Origin: Akkermansiaceae bacterium
GTDB taxonomy: Bacteria; Verrucomicrobiota; Verrucomicrobiia; Verrucomicrobiales; Akkermansiaceae
Direction: 5' to 3'
Assembly (NCBI GenBank): GCA_903826205.1
Contig: CAIKDP010000124.1
Coordinates: 1 to 41,456 of the forward strand
DNA length: 41,456 bases
The position numbers were made by a program, and so were the translations under genes. The notes beneath the pieces are model-generated. The model searched no databases and had not been told where the DNA came from. It saw only the letters and a program-made list of their open reading frames with translations. Numbering within the stretch: the first letter of the stretch is position 1; each line of letters opens with the position of its first letter. Below are positions 5,965-39,345 of the stretch, in pieces.

Positions 5965-6117
5965 GCCTCAGTGATGCGTACCGGACGGCTATCCGTCAAG
6001 TGCCGCGGCCCCTTGCTGCGCCTGTGTATTTACTTTCACCATTTTTTTTCCGGCAATCGGCCTTTTGGCTGGTCAAGCCCGTAGCCGGTTTCCTACTGTT
6101 TGAGAAATTCGAACCCG

Positions 6118-6744
6118 ATGAGTGCCAAAACTTACCAACCCGCCTTGTTATCCGTCGCCGTTGCCGCCCTGTTTTTGTCCCCCTGCGCGGCCTTGGGTGA
6201 AGCCAAAGTGGTGGCCGAGAAGCCGAAATTCGACAGTCTGCTCTCACCGGAATTTGGCGGGGCGAAGATGAAAACTTTCAAGCCGAAAGAATGGCTCGAG
6301 GTGGAGTCCAAGATCAAGATCATGATGAGTCCCGAGCCCAAGTCCAAGACTTGCGACCGCATCACCGTCAAATGGTATGTCGCGGTCAAAAATCCGGACA
6401 AGCCGAGCACCTTCCTCAAGCTCACCAAGGAGGTGGAACACGTCAATATCCCGCTCAATGAGGAGGTCTATGTCTCCGCCTACCTGTCCCCCGCCTCAAT
6501 CATGCGCCTGACCGGTGGCGACCGGGCCTCCAAGCAGGCCGTGAAATTCGTCGGTTACGAGGTGCTCATCGACGGCAAGGTGCTCGCCAGCGAAACCGAC
6601 AAGGGCGAACCCAAATGGTGGAGCCTGCCATCTAACAACATTGCCGAAAGCACCACGGTGCCGGTTCTCAGCAAGGCGGAAACCCCCTTTGCCCAAATGT
6701 GGTGGGACCGCTACGCCGAGGTGAAATCGAAAACAGGACCGTGA
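6118..6744 (+). CDS. Exported Amuc_1102-like protein, first gene of the pilus-like operon
   Basis: The product is 208 aa with a signal peptide at residues 1-27 (hydrophobic PALLSVAVAALFLSP, cut after CAALGEA or nearby), so it should be periplasmic. The mature part is beta-rich with features I recall from Akkermansia Amuc_1102: a WLEVE segment, ITVKWYVAVKNP, a YLSPASIMRLTG stretch and a WW pair late in the chain. Amuc_1102 is reported to have an immunoglobulin-like fold. ATG 6118 was chosen over TTG 6100 because it leaves a compact signal peptide. It lies 70 bp upstream of the pilM-like gene, same strand. The resemblance is from memory and the function is unknown. Confidence 0.72.
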   Translation: MSAKTYQPALLSVAVAALFLSPCAALGEAKVVAEKPKFDSLLSPEFGGAKMKTFKPKEWLEVESKIKIMMSPEPKSKTCDRITVKWYVAVKNPDKPSTFLKLTKEVEHVNIPLNEEVYVSAYLSPASIMRLTGGDRASKQAVKFVGYEVLIDGKVLASETDKGEPKWWSLPSNNIAESTTVPVLSKAETPFAQMWWDRYAEVKSKTGP

Positions 6745-6814: not shown

Positions 6815-8692
6815 ATGGCTGATACTTTGACCACCGTCGCACTCAATATAGGTTCCCAGCGCATTGGTATGGCCGTTTTCGAAACCTCGAAAAATGGCGG
6901 CCTGTTGCTCAAAGCCTACGCTTCAGAGAACATCATCGCCGACCCTGCGCTGGAGGCTTCGCGAATTGGCCAGATGCGGGTGGCGGTGACCGACCTTGCC
7001 CATCGGTTAAAGGTGGGCAAGTCCAAGGTGCGCTACGCGATCTCGGGTCAGGCGGTGTTCACGCGGTTTGTGAAACTGCCGCCGCTGCAGGAGGACAACA
7101 TCGAACAACTGGTCACCTTTGAGGCCCAGCAGCATGTGCCGTTCCCGATCAACGAGGTGGTCTGGGATTATGAGATGATCGAAGGGGCGGGGGAAAAGGA
7201 AGTGGTCATTGTCGCCATCAAGGGCGAGTCGCTGGATGAGATCAATGCCGCGGTCAACGACAGCGGCCTGACCACGGCGGAAGTGGATGTGGCGCCCATG
7301 GCGCTCTTCAATGCGTTCTGTGCCTCCTATGGCCCGTCAAGCGAACCGGTCCTGCTGATCGATATCGGCGCCAAAACCAGCAACCTGCTCTATATCGAAG
7401 GCAAACGCTTTTTCACCCGCAGCATTCTGGTCGGCGGCGCGGCCGTCACCGCGGCCATTGCCAAGGAATACAACGTGTCGTTTTTGGAAGCGGAGCAGCA
7501 GAAGCTCGTGCATGGCTTGGTGGCCCTGGGTGGCGGCCATACCGAACAACTCGATGAATCCGTGGCGGCGCTGGCGATGGTCATCCGCAATGCGCTGACG
7601 CGTCTGCCTTCGGAGATTGCGCGCACCACCAACTACTACCGCAGCCAGCACGGTGGCAATGCCCCCAAACGTGTCTATCTCTGCGGCGGCGGTGCCAACC
7701 TGCCATACACGCTCGAATTCTTTGAAGAAAAGCTCAACCTGCCGATCGAGTATTTCAACCCGCTCAAGACTTTGGCCGTCGGTAAAGGGGTGGAGACCGC
7801 CGTGCTCCAGCGTGAAGCCCACTTGATGGGGGAGTTGGTTGGTCTGGGCCTGCGCGGCATTGGCAAGTCCGCCATCAACATTGACCTGGTACCGGCGGTG
7901 GTCGAGCAAACCCGGGCGGCGGATCGCCGCAAGCCCTTCCTGATTGGAGCCGCGGCGCTGTTTCTCGCCGGGGTGGGCACTTGGGCGGTCTATCAGATGG
8001 TCGCGGCCGGCGCCGCGGAGGACAAGAACCGCACCATGACCGAAAGCAAGGAAACCTTGGAGCCCTTGGCCGGAGATATCCTCACGCTCATGAAGACCCA
8101 GGAGGCGCTTCAAGCCGTGGCCACCAGCTTCACATCCGCGGAGGCGGATCACGCGTTTTGGCCGGACCTGTTGTCCGAGTTGACCGGAGCCCTTGCCAGT
8201 GATGCCGTATGGATCACGGACTTGGAACCGCTCAGCGGCTTCAATCCGTTGGTGGAGGAGACCAAAGCACCCGCCACCGGTGCCCAAGCCGCCAACGGCC
8301 ACTCGGTGGTCAAGCCGGATTTCTATTCCGGTGTCTACGGCAGCAGCGGCCTGATGGAGGTGCGCAGCGAGCCGGTGGTCGAGGCCACCAAGGAGCCCAG
8401 GCCACAAGCCGCGGCGGCCAGCAGCAGCCTCACCGCCGATGCCGTGCGCATTCACGGATATTGGCGCGAGAATCCGGACAGCCAGAACGTCGTTTCCAGG
8501 CTGCTCAAACGCCTGCGCGACAAGCCGGGGTCCTTCCGCTTCAGTGCCACCGGCGCGGACGGAAAAACGGTGCCACTCAAAGACGAGCAAATTCTCAAAA
8601 TCACCCTCAAACCCGCCTCCAGCGAAAAGGGTGAACTGGCCTTTCCTTTCGAAATCACACTGCCCCTCAGCCGCAAGGTCAGCATCAAGTAA
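6815..8692 (+). CDS. pilM: PilM-PilN fusion-like protein (Amuc_1101-like)
   Basis: The product is 625 aa, far longer than a stand-alone PilM (about 350). Residues 1-345 are the actin-like PilM domain: N-terminal LNIGSQRIGMAVF phosphate loop, VPFPINEVVWDY (108-119), DIGAKTSNL (183-191) and the nucleotide motif LCGGGANLPY (289-298). Residues 354-360 read INIDLVP, close to the INLLP peptide by which PilN binds PilM, followed by basic RRK and one membrane helix (about 374-396). The remaining 230 residues are periplasmic and include two short helix/beta segments, as expected of a PilN C-terminal domain. So PilM and PilN functions appear joined in one chain. It should sit on the cytoplasmic face of the inner membrane. 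No Shine-Dalgarno precedes ATG 6815. Confidence 0.88.
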   Translation: MADTLTTVALNIGSQRIGMAVFETSKNGGLLLKAYASENIIADPALEASRIGQMRVAVTDLAHRLKVGKSKVRYAISGQAVFTRFVKLPPLQEDNIEQLVTFEAQQHVPFPINEVVWDYEMIEGAGEKEVVIVAIKGESLDEINAAVNDSGLTTAEVDVAPMALFNAFCASYGPSSEPVLLIDIGAKTSNLLYIEGKRFFTRSILVGGAAVTAAIAKEYNVSFLEAEQQKLVHGLVALGGGHTEQLDESVAALAMVIRNALTRLPSEIARTTNYYRSQHGGNAPKRVYLCGGGANLPYTLEFFEEKLNLPIEYFNPLKTLAVGKGVETAVLQREAHLMGELVGLGLRGIGKSAINIDLVPAVVEQTRAADRRKPFLIGAAALFLAGVGTWAVYQMVAAGAAEDKNRTMTESKETLEPLAGDILTLMKTQEALQAVATSFTSAEADHAFWPDLLSELTGALASDAVWITDLEPLSGFNPLVEETKAPATGAQAANGHSVVKPDFYSGVYGSSGLMEVRSEPVVEATKEPRPQAAAASSSLTADAVRIHGYWRENPDSQNVVSRLLKRLRDKPGSFRFSATGADGKTVPLKDEQILKITLKPASSEKGELAFPFEITLPLSRKVSIK

Positions 8693-8721: not shown

Positions 8722-9780
8722 ATGAGTTGGATCAAGGATAACAAATTCGCCGCCACGACTGGAGGAGTCACCCTCGTCGTGACGTTGGCGCTGCTGTATG
8801 TGGGCATGCACGCCCGCACCCGCTACGCCACCGCCCTCGAAAACTATCAGAACGCCGCCAGCGAAGTGGAGGGCTTTGAGGCGATTGCGCTGTATCCGAG
8901 CCGGGAAGACCGGGCCGGGAAAAGCAAGGCGCTCAACGACTACCGCACGGCGATCACCGGCATGCAGGCCGCCTTCGAGAAGTACCGTCCCAAGGATCTT
9001 AAAAAACTATCGCCGCAGGACTTTACGGATCATGCCAAGGCCGCCAGCGAGGAAGTGGGCAAGGCCTTTGAAGAGGCTCACACCAAACTTCCCGAAGGTT
9101 TTTTCCTCGGCTTTGAGTCGTACACGGGAACCCTCGCCCGCGAGGATGCCACCAGCCTGCTCGACTATCAACTCGGGGCTGCCAAGGAACTGATGTTGGC
9201 CCTGGCCAAGGCCAAGCCCTCGCAACTCCAGAACCTCCACCGGCTGAAGTTCGCCGAAGAAGACGGCGACAAGTGGCAAGCCGACCCCAGCGATGCGGGC
9301 CGGCCATTTCCAATCGAAATCACCTTCAAGGGCAGTGAGAGCTGCGTGCGCGAGTTCCTCTCCGCCATGAGCAAGTCGCCCAACTACTTTTATATCGTGC
9401 GCAGCCTGCGCATCATGAACGAAAAACAACGCGCGCCACTCGTCGCGGATGCCAAGTTTGAACCCGCCACACCCGCTGCGGGTGCCGGCAAACCCGGTGC
9501 CGACCCCTTCGGCGGAGCCGCGGGGTTTGTCACACCGCCGGAAGAACCCGCCACTCCCGCGACGCCGTCCGCCACCCCGCCCAAGACGCCGGCTCCGGCG
9601 ACGCCCTCCCCGGCCGTGGCTCCAGCCCCGGCTCCCGCCGCCACTCCCGCGACGGCGGACACCGGCCGCATCCTCAATCAGGTGCTTGGCAACGAAGAAC
9701 TGCAAGTGTTCCTCCGCCTTGATGTGCTTCAGTTCCTTCCGGTCAAGCCCTTGCCTGAAGTACCCAAATCCATCCCCTGA
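8722..9780 (+). CDS. Amuc_1100-like single-pass membrane protein (PilO-like position)
   Basis: The product is 352 aa. A short cytoplasmic start (MSWIKDNKFAA) precedes a membrane helix at about 11-28, a helical or coiled region (35-170), and an alpha/beta part containing PFPIEITFKG and YFYIVRSLRIMNEK (196-235). Next comes a Pro/Ala-rich linker (about 245-315) and a final strand segment with VLGNEELQVFLRLDVLQF (320-337). These match Akkermansia Amuc_1100 in order and wording: its start MSNWITDNKPAA, a PLEIAFQG block, an NSIRIRNER block, a P/A linker and a QVFVQVSLNLVHF end. The topology parallels PilO. It is 29 bp after the pilM-like gene and 20 bp before the next. Host effects known for Amuc_1100 cannot be assumed here. 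Confidence 0.88.
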   Translation: MSWIKDNKFAATTGGVTLVVTLALLYVGMHARTRYATALENYQNAASEVEGFEAIALYPSREDRAGKSKALNDYRTAITGMQAAFEKYRPKDLKKLSPQDFTDHAKAASEEVGKAFEEAHTKLPEGFFLGFESYTGTLAREDATSLLDYQLGAAKELMLALAKAKPSQLQNLHRLKFAEEDGDKWQADPSDAGRPFPIEITFKGSESCVREFLSAMSKSPNYFYIVRSLRIMNEKQRAPLVADAKFEPATPAAGAGKPGADPFGGAAGFVTPPEEPATPATPSATPPKTPAPATPSPAVAPAPAPAATPATADTGRILNQVLGNEELQVFLRLDVLQFLPVKPLPEVPKSIP

Positions 9781-9800: not shown

Positions 9801-10853
9801 ATGTCCTGGTTCTCCCAGAATTACGAAAAGGCCGCCGTCGGCGGAGCCGCCCTCGCCGCCATCGGCTTCGCCTTCCTCGGTTGGCTCAAGCTCGGCGACG
9901 TCCCAGCTGATTTCAGCGCCAACACCAAAGGCACCGGCGTCACCGACCCCTCCATCCCCGACGCCGACCTCGTGCCCAAGGCCATCGCCTCGCTCGGCCT
10001 CGATCGCACATGGCATCAGGCGGAAGCCGAAAACCGCCCGGTCGACTTGTTCACCGGCGTTCCGCTTTTCATCGCCCGCGATCATCCGGACAAACCCGTC
10101 GACCTCTACACCAGCCCCCCGGTGCATCCGCCCATTCCTAACATTTGGTGGATCGAGCACGACATGGATCCGGGATATGCCGATTCCCCGAGCCGCGATG
10201 CCGACGAGGATGGCTTCACCAATCTTGAGGAATACAAGGGCAAGACCGATCCCAAGGATGCCAAATCCCATCCGCCACTGCTGGCCAAGTTGAAATTTGA
10301 AAAGGTGGAAAGTCTCAACTGGTGTGTGCGTCCGGGGTACCCGGAGGGCGAAAACTTCACGGGCACATATGTGGACAGCCTTGGGGGCAAAAACAAAACC
10401 AAGACCGGCGCCAGCGTCAAACCCGGCGAGATGTTCTTTGCCGACGGGGTGATGAAAAACCGCTTCAAATACCTGGGACTGGAAAAGCGCCGGGAAATGA
10501 ACAATGCCATCCACATGGAAATGGAAGTCACCTACGCCAAGATCGAGGACCAACTGCCTAACAAAAAGGGCGTGGTCTATGAAATTCCGCAGTTTGCCGA
10601 AGGCCGGCAGCAGGAGTTTTCCAAGTACGACCGGAGCGCGGTGCTCACCTTGGAAGCGATCGGCAACGCAGGCAAAAACGAAACCATCAAGGAAAACACC
10701 CCCTTCGGCTTGCCGTTTGACGCGCCCAAGAAGGATTTTCTGCTCAAAAAGGTCACTCCCGAGAGCATCGAGATTGAAGCCACCGATGGCGCCACCGGCA
10801 ATAAAAAGACCACCACCATCCGTCTGGGCTCGTTCCCGGAAATGACCCCCTGA
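9801..10853 (+). CDS. Amuc_1099-like single-pass membrane protein with calcium-type loop
   Basis: The product is 350 aa with a membrane helix at about residues 8-28 (AVGGAALAAIGFAFLGWLK) after a short SWFSQNYEK start, then a periplasmic region. Residues 133-157 contain DADEDGFTNLEEYKGKTDPKDA, the Asp-rich dockerin/thrombospondin-3 style calcium loop also used in many secreted PVC proteins. The C terminus (TTTIRLGSFPEMTP) is beta-rich. It is fourth in the operon, immediately after the Amuc_1100-like gene and before the secretin, the place PilP occupies in a canonical pilMNOPQ operon. There is no lipobox, so it is not a typical PilP. Homology to Amuc_1099 is inferred mainly from position and architecture. 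Confidence 0.72.
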   Translation: MSWFSQNYEKAAVGGAALAAIGFAFLGWLKLGDVPADFSANTKGTGVTDPSIPDADLVPKAIASLGLDRTWHQAEAENRPVDLFTGVPLFIARDHPDKPVDLYTSPPVHPPIPNIWWIEHDMDPGYADSPSRDADEDGFTNLEEYKGKTDPKDAKSHPPLLAKLKFEKVESLNWCVRPGYPEGENFTGTYVDSLGGKNKTKTGASVKPGEMFFADGVMKNRFKYLGLEKRREMNNAIHMEMEVTYAKIEDQLPNKKGVVYEIPQFAEGRQQEFSKYDRSAVLTLEAIGNAGKNETIKENTPFGLPFDAPKKDFLLKKVTPESIEIEATDGATGNKKTTTIRLGSFPEMTP

Positions 10854-10918: not shown

Positions 10919-13576
10919 ATGCAAAAGCCTCCCATGTATCTATCCAGTCGCACCGCCATCGCCTTGATGACCGTGGCATCTGTCATGCCCATCACCATCA
11001 CTGTTGCCAATGCCGCGGAGATGTCGGGCTCTTCGCAAGTCAGCCTGGCGGAGCGCGAAATGATTCGCCGGCAACAAGCCGTCACCGAGGCGGACGTCCT
11101 GTTGCTTGAAGGCCGCGCGGCCTATGCCAAGAAAGATTACCAACAGGCCTTGGACAAATTCACCCAGGCCCTGACCAAACTGCCAGAGGCACCGATGCTG
11201 GCCGACCGGCGCAAGTCCGTCACCGATCAACTCACTGACGCGAGTGTGGCCTTGGCCCAACAATTCCGCCGCCAGGGCGGCAAGGACCCGGCCAAGGGCG
11301 GTAAAGGCAAGTATGAGGATGCCCGGGCCTTGCTCGAAGACGCCCTCAAAGCCGACCCGCAAAACGCCGTTGCGAAGCGCGAGTTGGCCTATCTGGACGA
11401 TCCGATCCGTACCAACCCCACGCTCGACTACAAGCACAGCCAGGACATCGATGCGGTTCGGCGCGGCCTGTACACGGCGGAAGGTTACTACAACAACGCG
11501 AAATATGATGCCGCCAAGCGCGAATACGAAAAAGTGCTGCGCATCGACCCCTACAACACCGCCGCCCGTCGCGGCATGGAAGTGCTCGCCTCCGCCAAGC
11601 GCTCCTACTATCAAGCCGCCTATGATCAGACGCGTGCCGAATTGCTGATGGAAGTGGACAAGGCTTGGGAGCTGTCGGTGCCTGCGGACATGCCGGTGGG
11701 TGGCATCTCGGTTTCCGATGGTTCAGGAGTGAGCTCCGGCATCGCCTACATCAACGAAAAACTGCGCCGCATCATCATCCCCAATATCGCCTTTGACGAT
11801 ATCACGGTGGAAGAGGCCGTCGATTTCCTGCGCTTGCGGGCCGCCGAATTGGATCAGCTCGAGCCCGACCCCAACCAGAAGGGTGTGAATTTCCTCATTC
11901 GCCGGCCGACGACGACCGCCGCTGCCGGTGGCGACGCCGGTCTGGAGGCCGCACCTGAGGCCGGCGCGTTGCCGACAGGCGTTAGCCCGGGATCGCTGCG
12001 GATCAAGACGCTGCGCCTCACCAACATTCCGCTCGGCCAGGCGCTCAAATACATTTGCGAACAAACCAAGCTGCGTTTCAAGGTGGACGATTTCGCGGTG
12101 ACGCTCGTGCCCATGACTGAGACGGGCAATGAGACCTTCACCCGCACCTTCCGCGTGCCACCCGGATTTTCGGATTCGCTGGCGGGCAGCGGCGGGGAGG
12201 AAGCCGGCGCGACCGTCGATCCTTTTGCCGGTGCGGCCGAGTCGGGCGGCAGTGGCGGTGGCAAGGCCATCAAGCCCCGCAGGCCGATTCTTGAATTGCT
12301 GAAAAAATCCGGCATTATTTTTGCCGAAGGCAGTTCCGCCACCCTCAGTCCCGGCGGCCTGCTCGTTACCAATACCGCGGCGGAACTCGACAAGATCGAG
12401 CAGTTGGTCAACAACATGCGCGGCGGCCAGCCCAAGCAAATCAAGATCACCACCAAGTTTGTTGAAATTTCCCAGGAAAACAACGACGAGCTCAGCTTTG
12501 ACTGGTTGGTCACCCCCTTCGGACTCAACGCCAACACGCTCTTTGGCAGTGGTGGCACCGTGGGCAATGGAACGCCACGCCGCGGCCAGGATATGGTCAA
12601 TCCCGTCAATGGCGTGTCCCTGCCGGGAGTTCCCTCCAACCCGCTGCTGCCCATCTCCAATACCAGCACTGCCGGCCTCCGCTCGGGGGACGCAGCGCTT
12701 AATCGCAACAGCATTGATGCCATCCTGAACAACCCGCTGCGCACGGCCAGTGCCACCAAGGTGGCGCCGGGCATTGCGGCCGTCACCGGCCTGTTCTCCG
12801 AAGGCCAAGTCCAACTCCTCATGCGTGGCCTCGCCCAGAAAAAGGGCACCGACCTCATGACCGCACCGTCTGTCATGGCCAAACCCGGGCAAAAAGCCAC
12901 CATCGAAATTGTTCGTGAATTTATCTATCCGACTGAATACGAACCCCCGGAACTTCCCCAACAAAACAACAACAACTTCGGCGGCCTCGGTGGCGGCGGC
13001 GGCGGTGGTGGCATTGCCACTCCGGCGACTCCGACCGCATGGGAAACCCGCAACACCGGGGTCACGTTGGAAATTGAACCCAGCATCACCGAAAACGACT
13101 ACGTCATCGACCTGCGGTTCGTACCTGAAATTGTCGAGTTCGAAGGGTTTATCAACTATGGCAGTCCGATCCAGGCGCCATCCACGGACATTTTTGGCAA
13201 TGCCATCACCTCCACGATCACGGACAACCGCATCGAGATGCCGGTGTTCTCAACCCGGCGGGTCAACACCTCCCTTTCCATCTATGACGGCTACACCGTC
13301 GCCGTCGGTGGTTTGATTCGCGAGGATGTGCAGAACGTCAATGACAGCGTGCCGATCTTTGGTGACATCCCGCTCATCGGCCGGTTGTTCCAGTCCAAGG
13401 CGGAAAACCACATCAAGAGCAATCTCATCATCTTTGTCACCGCTCAGATCATTGATGCCACCGGTCGCCCGTTGCGCGGAGAAACCAGCTTGCCGCCAGT
13501 GGCCCCGGCCATCCCGGCCACCCCTGGCACGCCGGTGGGCGGCCCAGGCGATGTGCCGCCTCCCGTGGAGCAATAA
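10919..13576 (+). CDS. TPR-secretin outer-membrane channel (PilQ/GspD family, Amuc_1098-like)
   Basis: The product is 885 aa. A signal peptide (about 1-32) is followed by TPR-like helices (about 55-240: DVLLLEGRAAYAKKDYQQALDKF, then AEGYYNNAKYDAAKREYEKVL). An N0-type module follows (IIIPNIAFDDITVEEAVDFL, 284-303), then N-domain repeats and the secretin core. The core has the diagnostic VGGLIRED (about 796) and VPIFGDIPLIGRLF (about 812-825) and ends in NLIIFVTAQIID. A Gly-rich insert with eight consecutive glycines lies near residue 695, and the tail is Pro-rich. The family forms multimeric outer-membrane gates. The N-terminal TPRs replace the AMIN domains of classical PilQ. It closes the operon and is followed by a strong hairpin. 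Confidence 0.92.
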   Translation: MQKPPMYLSSRTAIALMTVASVMPITITVANAAEMSGSSQVSLAEREMIRRQQAVTEADVLLLEGRAAYAKKDYQQALDKFTQALTKLPEAPMLADRRKSVTDQLTDASVALAQQFRRQGGKDPAKGGKGKYEDARALLEDALKADPQNAVAKRELAYLDDPIRTNPTLDYKHSQDIDAVRRGLYTAEGYYNNAKYDAAKREYEKVLRIDPYNTAARRGMEVLASAKRSYYQAAYDQTRAELLMEVDKAWELSVPADMPVGGISVSDGSGVSSGIAYINEKLRRIIIPNIAFDDITVEEAVDFLRLRAAELDQLEPDPNQKGVNFLIRRPTTTAAAGGDAGLEAAPEAGALPTGVSPGSLRIKTLRLTNIPLGQALKYICEQTKLRFKVDDFAVTLVPMTETGNETFTRTFRVPPGFSDSLAGSGGEEAGATVDPFAGAAESGGSGGGKAIKPRRPILELLKKSGIIFAEGSSATLSPGGLLVTNTAAELDKIEQLVNNMRGGQPKQIKITTKFVEISQENNDELSFDWLVTPFGLNANTLFGSGGTVGNGTPRRGQDMVNPVNGVSLPGVPSNPLLPISNTSTAGLRSGDAALNRNSIDAILNNPLRTASATKVAPGIAAVTGLFSEGQVQLLMRGLAQKKGTDLMTAPSVMAKPGQKATIEIVREFIYPTEYEPPELPQQNNNNFGGLGGGGGGGGIATPATPTAWETRNTGVTLEIEPSITENDYVIDLRFVPEIVEFEGFINYGSPIQAPSTDIFGNAITSTITDNRIEMPVFSTRRVNTSLSIYDGYTVAVGGLIREDVQNVNDSVPIFGDIPLIGRLFQSKAENHIKSNLIIFVTAQIIDATGRPLRGETSLPPVAPAIPATPGTPVGGPGDVPPPVEQ

Positions 13577-38709: not shown

Positions 38710-39345
38710 TCATTCCTTCGTAGATGTTGAGCTCGTCACCTGCCAATGGCCGCCACGATCCGGGCCGATACGACGGATGAGGCCGCTGGTTTTGAGTTTT
38801 TCCAGATGATATTTCACTCCGTTTTCGGTGATGTCTCCGAGCAGGGTGGCGAGTTCCCTCCGGCTAATGGCAGGGTGCTCGCGCAGAATTCCAATGATTT
38901 TCTGGGTAGTCTTCTGGGTAGTCTTCTGGGTAGTTTTCCCCGACGTTTTCCCCGACGTTTTCCCCGACGTTTTCCCCGACGTTTTCCCCGACGTTTTCTC
39001 TCGGATGATGTCCAGATACGCTGGAGCAAAGGGGAACTCGATCCAGAGGTCATTGGGCTTGTAGTCGATGATCGGCTCGGGAACGCCCGCTTCGCGGCAG
39101 GCTTCAAAGATGCGCTGGATGCCGCGGCCCCAAGTCTCGATTTCGCCGGCGCGGAAGAAGGCATTGGCCAGGAACGGGTTGTAGGGGCTGGAGGCATGAT
39201 CCGCCAACAGGTGTTCCAAGGTCCAGCCTTCCGGCAGGACAGCCGGGTTCCAGATTTTCAGGCGGTTTTCATAAACGCGGATTTGCACCGGCGCGCCGAC
39301 AGCATAGTCGCGATGCACCAGTGCGTTGAGGATTGTACCCGTCGC
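38710..39345 (-). pseudogene. Truncated AlbA_2/HATPase-type regulator (RecG-like), N terminus lost
   Basis: This encodes the C-terminal part of the family once annotated as RecG-like or transcriptional regulator: TILNALVHRDYAVGAPVQIRVYENRLKIWNP, then EIETWGRGIQRIFEAC. A hydrophilic repeat linker follows, then a winged helix (ISRRELATLLGDITENGVKYHLEKL). The N-terminal AlbA_2 DNA-binding domain and the start of the ATPase-like domain are missing. The frame upstream (MPPTPARSWASSATG) is not family sequence, because at about 39333-39345 the reading frame passes into an antisense-phase fragment of a DUF932 gene. It is probably non-functional. The junction is seen by comparison with remembered family sequence. 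Confidence 0.72.
38899..38994. repeat. 12-bp tandem repeats encoding a (GKTS)/(KTTQ) linker
   Basis: Three copies of TTCTGGGTAGTC-type units (38899-38934) are followed by five of TTCCCCGACGTT (38935-38994). On the minus strand they encode a lysine/threonine-rich linker of 4-residue repeats before the winged helix. Because the unit is a multiple of three, copy-number change alters linker length without a frameshift. Such linkers are common in this regulator family. Confidence 0.9.

Follow-up and report, generated by a model that had tools for sequence, protein, structure and literature searches.

PilM and PilN are usually separate partner proteins at the base of the type IV pilus. In the type IVa pilus (T4aP), the tail of PilN holds PilM to the membrane (PMC3724824), and PilM serves as the stator socket for PilB (PMC11656802). 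The window analyzed here, a 41,456-nucleotide stretch of an Akkermansiaceae genome, carries a gene in which the two partners appear to be joined, raising the question of whether the peptide by which PilN docks onto PilM has been preserved within a single chain and, if so, onto which PilM domain it docks. The gene belongs to the family of Amuc_1101 from Akkermansia muciniphila, which NCBIfam describes as "PilM-like". In the text open to searching, Amuc_1101 was earlier given as a predicted FtsA (PMC5332112) and, in a 2026 paper, as "MUL2B, a PilM protein", its reference structure being absent (PMC13174399). No mention of a PilN half or a docking peptide in Amuc_1101 was found in the searchable literature, beyond the reach of which many subscription papers lie. 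What is already known is that the family has a name and that GspL of the type II secretion system (T2SS) provides a parallel.

Organization of the fused protein

The gene and its segments, with window positions and residues of the protein, are as follows.

6815..8692, + strand: PilM-PilN fusion gene (Amuc_1101 / MUL2B family); ORF with ATG start, 625 aa; NCBIfam NF045709
6821..7861, + strand: cytoplasmic actin-like PilM domain, residues 3-349; Pfam PilM_2, TIGR01175, VIA-align
7862..7936, + strand: cytoplasmic linker of 25 residues, 350-374 (PilN docking motif and basic residues); conserved spacings
7880..7894, + strand: IDLVP, residues 356-360, putative PilN-type docking motif (equivalent to I-N-L-L-P); homologue alignment, phmmer alignment to 5eou_A, pLDDT
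7937..7993, + strand: single membrane helix, residues 375-393; hydropathy, homologues, helix in the AlphaFold model
7994..8194, + strand: predicted periplasmic coiled-coil helix, residues 394-460; AlphaFold helix 361-460, profile aligned to PilN 55-125
8195..8689, + strand: periplasmic PilN-like ββ-α-ββ domain, residues 461-625; profile and fold searches

The NF045709 model (Amuc_1101 equivalog) spans residues 1-625 with an E-value of 2.7e-258 (858.8 bits against a curated cut-off of 650). Pfam PilM_2 (PF11104) covers residues 10-348 (E 1.3e-34, 120.1 bits against a cut-off of 27), and no domain C-terminal of it was returned by the Pfam search of the 625-aa protein. TIGR01175 pilM also lies over its cut-off (156.1 bits against 133). 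In VIA-align the domain matches PilM 2ych with a Z of 35.5 and 2.7 Å across 323 residues, and its fold is the FtsA-like actin fold (PilM structures, Z 33-35; 5eou_B, Z 33.5; FtsA, Z about 32). The domain is thereby a member of PilM, whereas the protein as a whole is not a canonical PilM, which is stand-alone, soluble and devoid of a membrane segment; this one has 625 residues and a membrane helix at 375-393.

Beyond the actin-like domain, the ORF bears out what a sequence-only reading of the locus had described: INIDLVP at residues 354-360 (window 7874-7894), RRK at residues 371-373 just ahead of one membrane helix, and a periplasmic domain. The best hydrophobic 19-mer begins at residue 375, a position shared by 66 of 68 homologues. 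A frame or assembly artefact was ruled out, the same open frame having been seen again in hundreds of genomes.

Residue 11 (6845-6847) is Asn, here and in 22/68 homologues, where most relatives have the Asp of LDIG, the first phosphate motif. Judged from this substitution, nucleotide hydrolysis has possibly been lost in the clade of the window protein.

Conservation of the docking motif

The linker was compared in an alignment of 86 sequences including the window protein, 68 of them less than 70% identical and representing some 55 families. All 68 non-redundant homologues have Leu358 and Pro360, and position 356 is I, V or L apart from one Thr. Position 357 is more variable (N 39, D 13, S 11, E 4, A 1). 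The commonest form of the linker is CPIEINL(M/L)P, in which INL(M/L)P is the motif of PilN itself. The pattern [IVLM][NDSE]LxP is present in 66/68 non-redundant linkers. Its occurrence by chance was ruled out, the expected number being 0.98 by within-linker shuffling (500 shuffles, maximum 5/68) and about 0.8 from its rate elsewhere in the same proteins. The spacings are equally regular: R347 to P360, from PilM to the motif, is 13 residues in 67/68 homologues, and P360 to P374 is 14 in 68/68. Among the 68 homologues, L358 and P360 rank at 0.86 and 0.97 in information and many flanking positions below 0.5. As in PilN, a cytoplasmic INLLP-type motif is accompanied by basic residues and one membrane helix. 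Conservation of this kind indicates that the PilN peptide is retained under strong constraint in the fusion linker.

The sequence-only reading had expected a linker conserved as N-x-x-L/V-P, with Asn355 as the Asn of INLLP. The conserved motif was found, but not in that register: position 355 is N in 9 of the 68 homologues and E in 52, and the real pattern, (I/V)-(N/D/S)-L-x-P, lies one residue further along. The register is I356-D357-L358-V359-P360, placing Asp357 at the Asn of PilN. The counterpart of this Asn is Asp in the clade of the window protein, while other clades have Ser, Glu or Ala, a point against the proposed reading.

The PilM-PilN pairs of T4aP, including those of Thermus (2YCH), Pseudomonas (5EOU) and E. 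coli K-12 (HofM/HofN), show the same domains, motif and order, whereas they are two proteins and that of Verrucomicrobiota is one chain. For instance, in E. coli K-12, taken as the unfused control, hofM lies directly upstream of hofN, and the N-terminus of HofN reads MNPPINFLPWRQQRR.

Identity of the C-terminal domain

A profile was built from the alignment of the isolated C-terminal domains. Its best match among PDB sequences is PilN 3jc8_Na from a type IVa pilus model (E 9e-6), the next standing at E 0.086. Pfam PilN (PF05137) matches 20/52 family members (best E 8.3e-6), while other families match two members each at most; the C-terminal domain of the window protein itself has no Pfam PilN match. 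The domain also aligns with E. coli HofN (E 5.7e-4). Predicted alone (pLDDT 88.3), it forms a long helix followed by ββ-α-ββ, inside which residues 475-539 make up a long insert of lower certainty. The best structural neighbours in VIA-align are PilO of 3jc8 (Z 6.7) and the GspL protein XcpY (Z 6.7, 2.6 Å over 78/80 residues), and further ones are EpsL, PilO, Amuc_1100 (Z 5.0) and EpsM, within a middling range of Z 4.5-6.7. Foldseek with the C-terminal domain returned no significant match. The topology is that of the ferredoxin-like alpha-beta-beta fold of PilN, PilO, GspL and GspM, at modest Z. Taking sequence profile, topology, position and fold in combination, the C-terminal domain is PilN-like, and the claim that PilM and PilN are fused in one protein holds. 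The sequence-only reading had named two outcomes that would overturn it, a peptide lacking conservation among homologues and a C-terminal domain without a PilN-like fold, and neither was observed.

Operon context and distribution in Verrucomicrobiota

The fusion is the second gene of an operon in which the following neighbours were recognized.

6100..6744, + strand: Amuc_1102 family pilus-like protein, putative start codon; NF042424, E 2.5e-76
8722..9780, + strand: Amuc_1100 family, in the PilO position of the operon; NF038287, E 4.6e-96
9801..10853, + strand: Amuc_1099 family, in the PilP position by gene order alone; NF042425, E 1.1e-114
10919..13576, + strand: Amuc_1098 family secretin, in the PilQ position; NF042912, 1060.5 bits; Pfam Secretin, E 5.2e-30

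The gene order Amuc_1102-1101-1100-1099-1098 is that of the Akkermansia MUL2 locus, and the likeness to Amuc_1101 / MUL2B consists in this order, as given in the searchable text of PMC13174399, together with the full-length equivalog match. The T4aP order M-N-O-P-Q ending in a secretin is found both at the window operon and at the deep loci, O and P being assigned by order and topology. Downstream of the fused gene at the deep loci come two proteins, each with a single membrane helix at the N-terminus, and next a large ORF where the secretin would lie. Position and length, rather than a family search, identified these downstream genes, and at two of the eleven loci listed (L039 and L048) the gene in the PilO position was missed by the greedy choice of ORFs. 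In the window, the Amuc_1100 homologue is rich in Pro and Ala over a long stretch close to the C-terminus (approximately 9449-9700).

The same genome contains two PilB-like ATPases together with a PilC-like protein, two PilT-like ATPases and prepilins, as well as a distinct T2SS-like cluster that includes a GspL-like ORF. Searched against this genome, the C-terminal profile of the family has a single match, the fused copy; the suggestion that there is no free PilN agrees with this, no other protein in the genome matching that profile. As candidates for a separate PilN elsewhere, Pfam PilN gives two sub-threshold places, one of them in the GspL-like ORF of the T2SS-like cluster, and these were rejected. 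In the GspL-like protein of that cluster (L189:4841-6073), the membrane helix is preceded by KLLPADVRAARRAARRRR; a Pro-containing join resembling that of PilN is thus present in the T2SS of this lineage too.

The fusion is not peculiar to the window. Among 387 sampled Verrucomicrobiota genomes, 371 match the family at E 0.001, probable FtsA cross-matches included, and 36 lie above the curated cut-off. In a further 115 sampled genomes, the strong full-length PilM matches fall in frames of about 500-700 aa, except for one cut by a contig end, while weaker partial matches fall in frames of 310-390 aa that may encode MreB or PilM-like proteins of divergent sequence. Since the strong full-length matches lie in such long frames, the fusion is a phylum-level trait, present in almost all of the Verrucomicrobiota genomes examined, those of Akkermansia among them. 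Viral contigs yielded no relatives.

Probable docking of the peptide and alternative explanations

GspL (EpsL, XcpY) of T2SS likewise has an actin-like cytoplasmic domain, one membrane helix and a ferredoxin-like periplasmic domain. The window protein might on this ground belong not to the pilus but to type II secretion, as a GspL orthologue: besides the common domain order, the closest small folds to its C-terminal domain are those of periplasmic XcpY and EpsL, weak matches to Pfam T2SSL (PF05134) occur in 10/32 members, and the secretin of the operon is nominally best against GspD among general families, though below the cut-off. Nevertheless, such an assignment is very improbable indeed. 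The cut-off of the TIGR01175 pilM model is exceeded, the window protein has no T2SSL match at E 1, PilM structures are recovered with no GspL cytoplasmic domain among the matches listed, the C-terminal profile finds PilN and not GspL among PDB sequences, and the genome keeps its GspL-like ORF in the separate cluster. Unlike those of GspL, the PilM domain and the operon of the fusion are of pilus type. Furthermore, the join in GspL reads LLQGEF, LLTGEF or MLHGIF without Pro, whereas the fusion has INLxP (IDLVP in the window) with its Leu and Pro in every homologue.

Within a pilus protein, the peptide could dock in cis, onto its own PilM domain, which is likely. In the full-length AlphaFold monomer (pLDDT 86.7), residues 351-360 form an ordered coil with a mean pLDDT of 93 that connects the last PilM helix to the helix 361-460. 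With chimera 5eou_A, the phmmer alignment continues as far as residue 360 and enters the PilN portion of the chain. 5EOU is an engineered PilM:PilN1-12 chimera in which, similarly, the C-terminus of PilM is joined to the N-terminal peptide of PilN; made for crystallography, it ends after 12 PilN residues, whereas the natural protein continues through the membrane. The VIA-align match to 5eou_B reaches model residue 364 (versus 366), as end points only and not as a register, while other PilM chains stop at 349-351 among the matches listed; some MreB/actin alignments also pass 351, making this extension weaker as evidence. Cis docking is favoured because the peptide is ordered in the model, corresponds to that of 5EOU and follows the PilM domain at near-invariant spacing.

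The same fusion could instead, as the sequence-only reading had suggested for an alternative, place its peptide on a neighbouring PilM domain and so link the cytoplasmic ring, and a 1:1 ring would bring neighbours close. Docking in trans is nonetheless unlikely, the peptide being already ordered in the monomer model; a reach to the neighbour would have no obvious need for the fixed length seen in the homologues, and the linker of the 5EOU chimera exceeds the natural one by only a single residue. It is more doubtful still that the peptide is a juxtamembrane relic, serving membrane insertion or helix capping and docked nowhere. Conservation extends to P374 and the basic residues ahead of the membrane, and the whole juxtamembrane segment is hence under some constraint, but conservation peaks at L358 and P360 above many weaker flanks, and the segment is extended at high pLDDT. 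GspL made the same join, yet has LLQG or LLTG, so that retention of INLxP after fusion is not automatic.

Proposed architecture and its significance

This type IV pilus protein is a natural fusion of PilM and PilN, and its peptide probably occupies the PilN-binding groove, most likely its own. The cytoplasmic PilM domain, as motor ATPase socket, is joined by a short linker, constant in length, to the former N-terminus of PilN. There the docking motif (IDLVP; INLLP or INLMP in most relatives) would bend back into the PilN groove, most likely that of the same chain, which would then span the membrane once and end in a PilN-type coiled coil and ββ-α-ββ domain. The latter may pair with Amuc_1100, in the place of PilO, and connect to the Amuc_1098 secretin. 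PilM is thereby covalently and permanently anchored to the membrane, in a 1:1 ratio with PilN, and may act as stator for PilB and PilT. More tentatively, Verrucomicrobiota may have rebuilt the pilus base, with PilM locked in its PilN-bound state and no reversible switch between motor partners; the result would be a covalent membrane stator ring as in T2SS, reached via a separate fusion which, unlike GspL, kept the docking peptide.

An identity is thereby given to the C-terminal half of Amuc_1101 (MUL2B), the protein without a reference structure in the searchable text of the 2026 paper (PMC13174399). Amuc_1100, studied as a probiotic factor, would be placed beside the PilN domain in the position of PilO instead of at the surface. 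In addition, the fusion is a natural, phylum-wide counterpart to an engineered crystallography chimera, and lets evolution be used to ask whether PilM and PilN need to bind reversibly: GspL lost the Pro after its fusion, whereas Verrucomicrobiota kept it invariant.

Tandem repeats in the window

The window contains two repeat regions. At 646-782, the heptanucleotide ATCCGCT is repeated in tandem (19.6 copies, 96% matches) upstream of the likely start of an ORF ending at 1744; the region is possibly phase-variable, since gain or loss of one 7-bp unit shifts the frame. At 38900-38998, 12-bp tandem repeats occur, with GTTTTCCCCGAC in 5.5 copies at 100% adjoining an array of TTCTGGGTAGTC.
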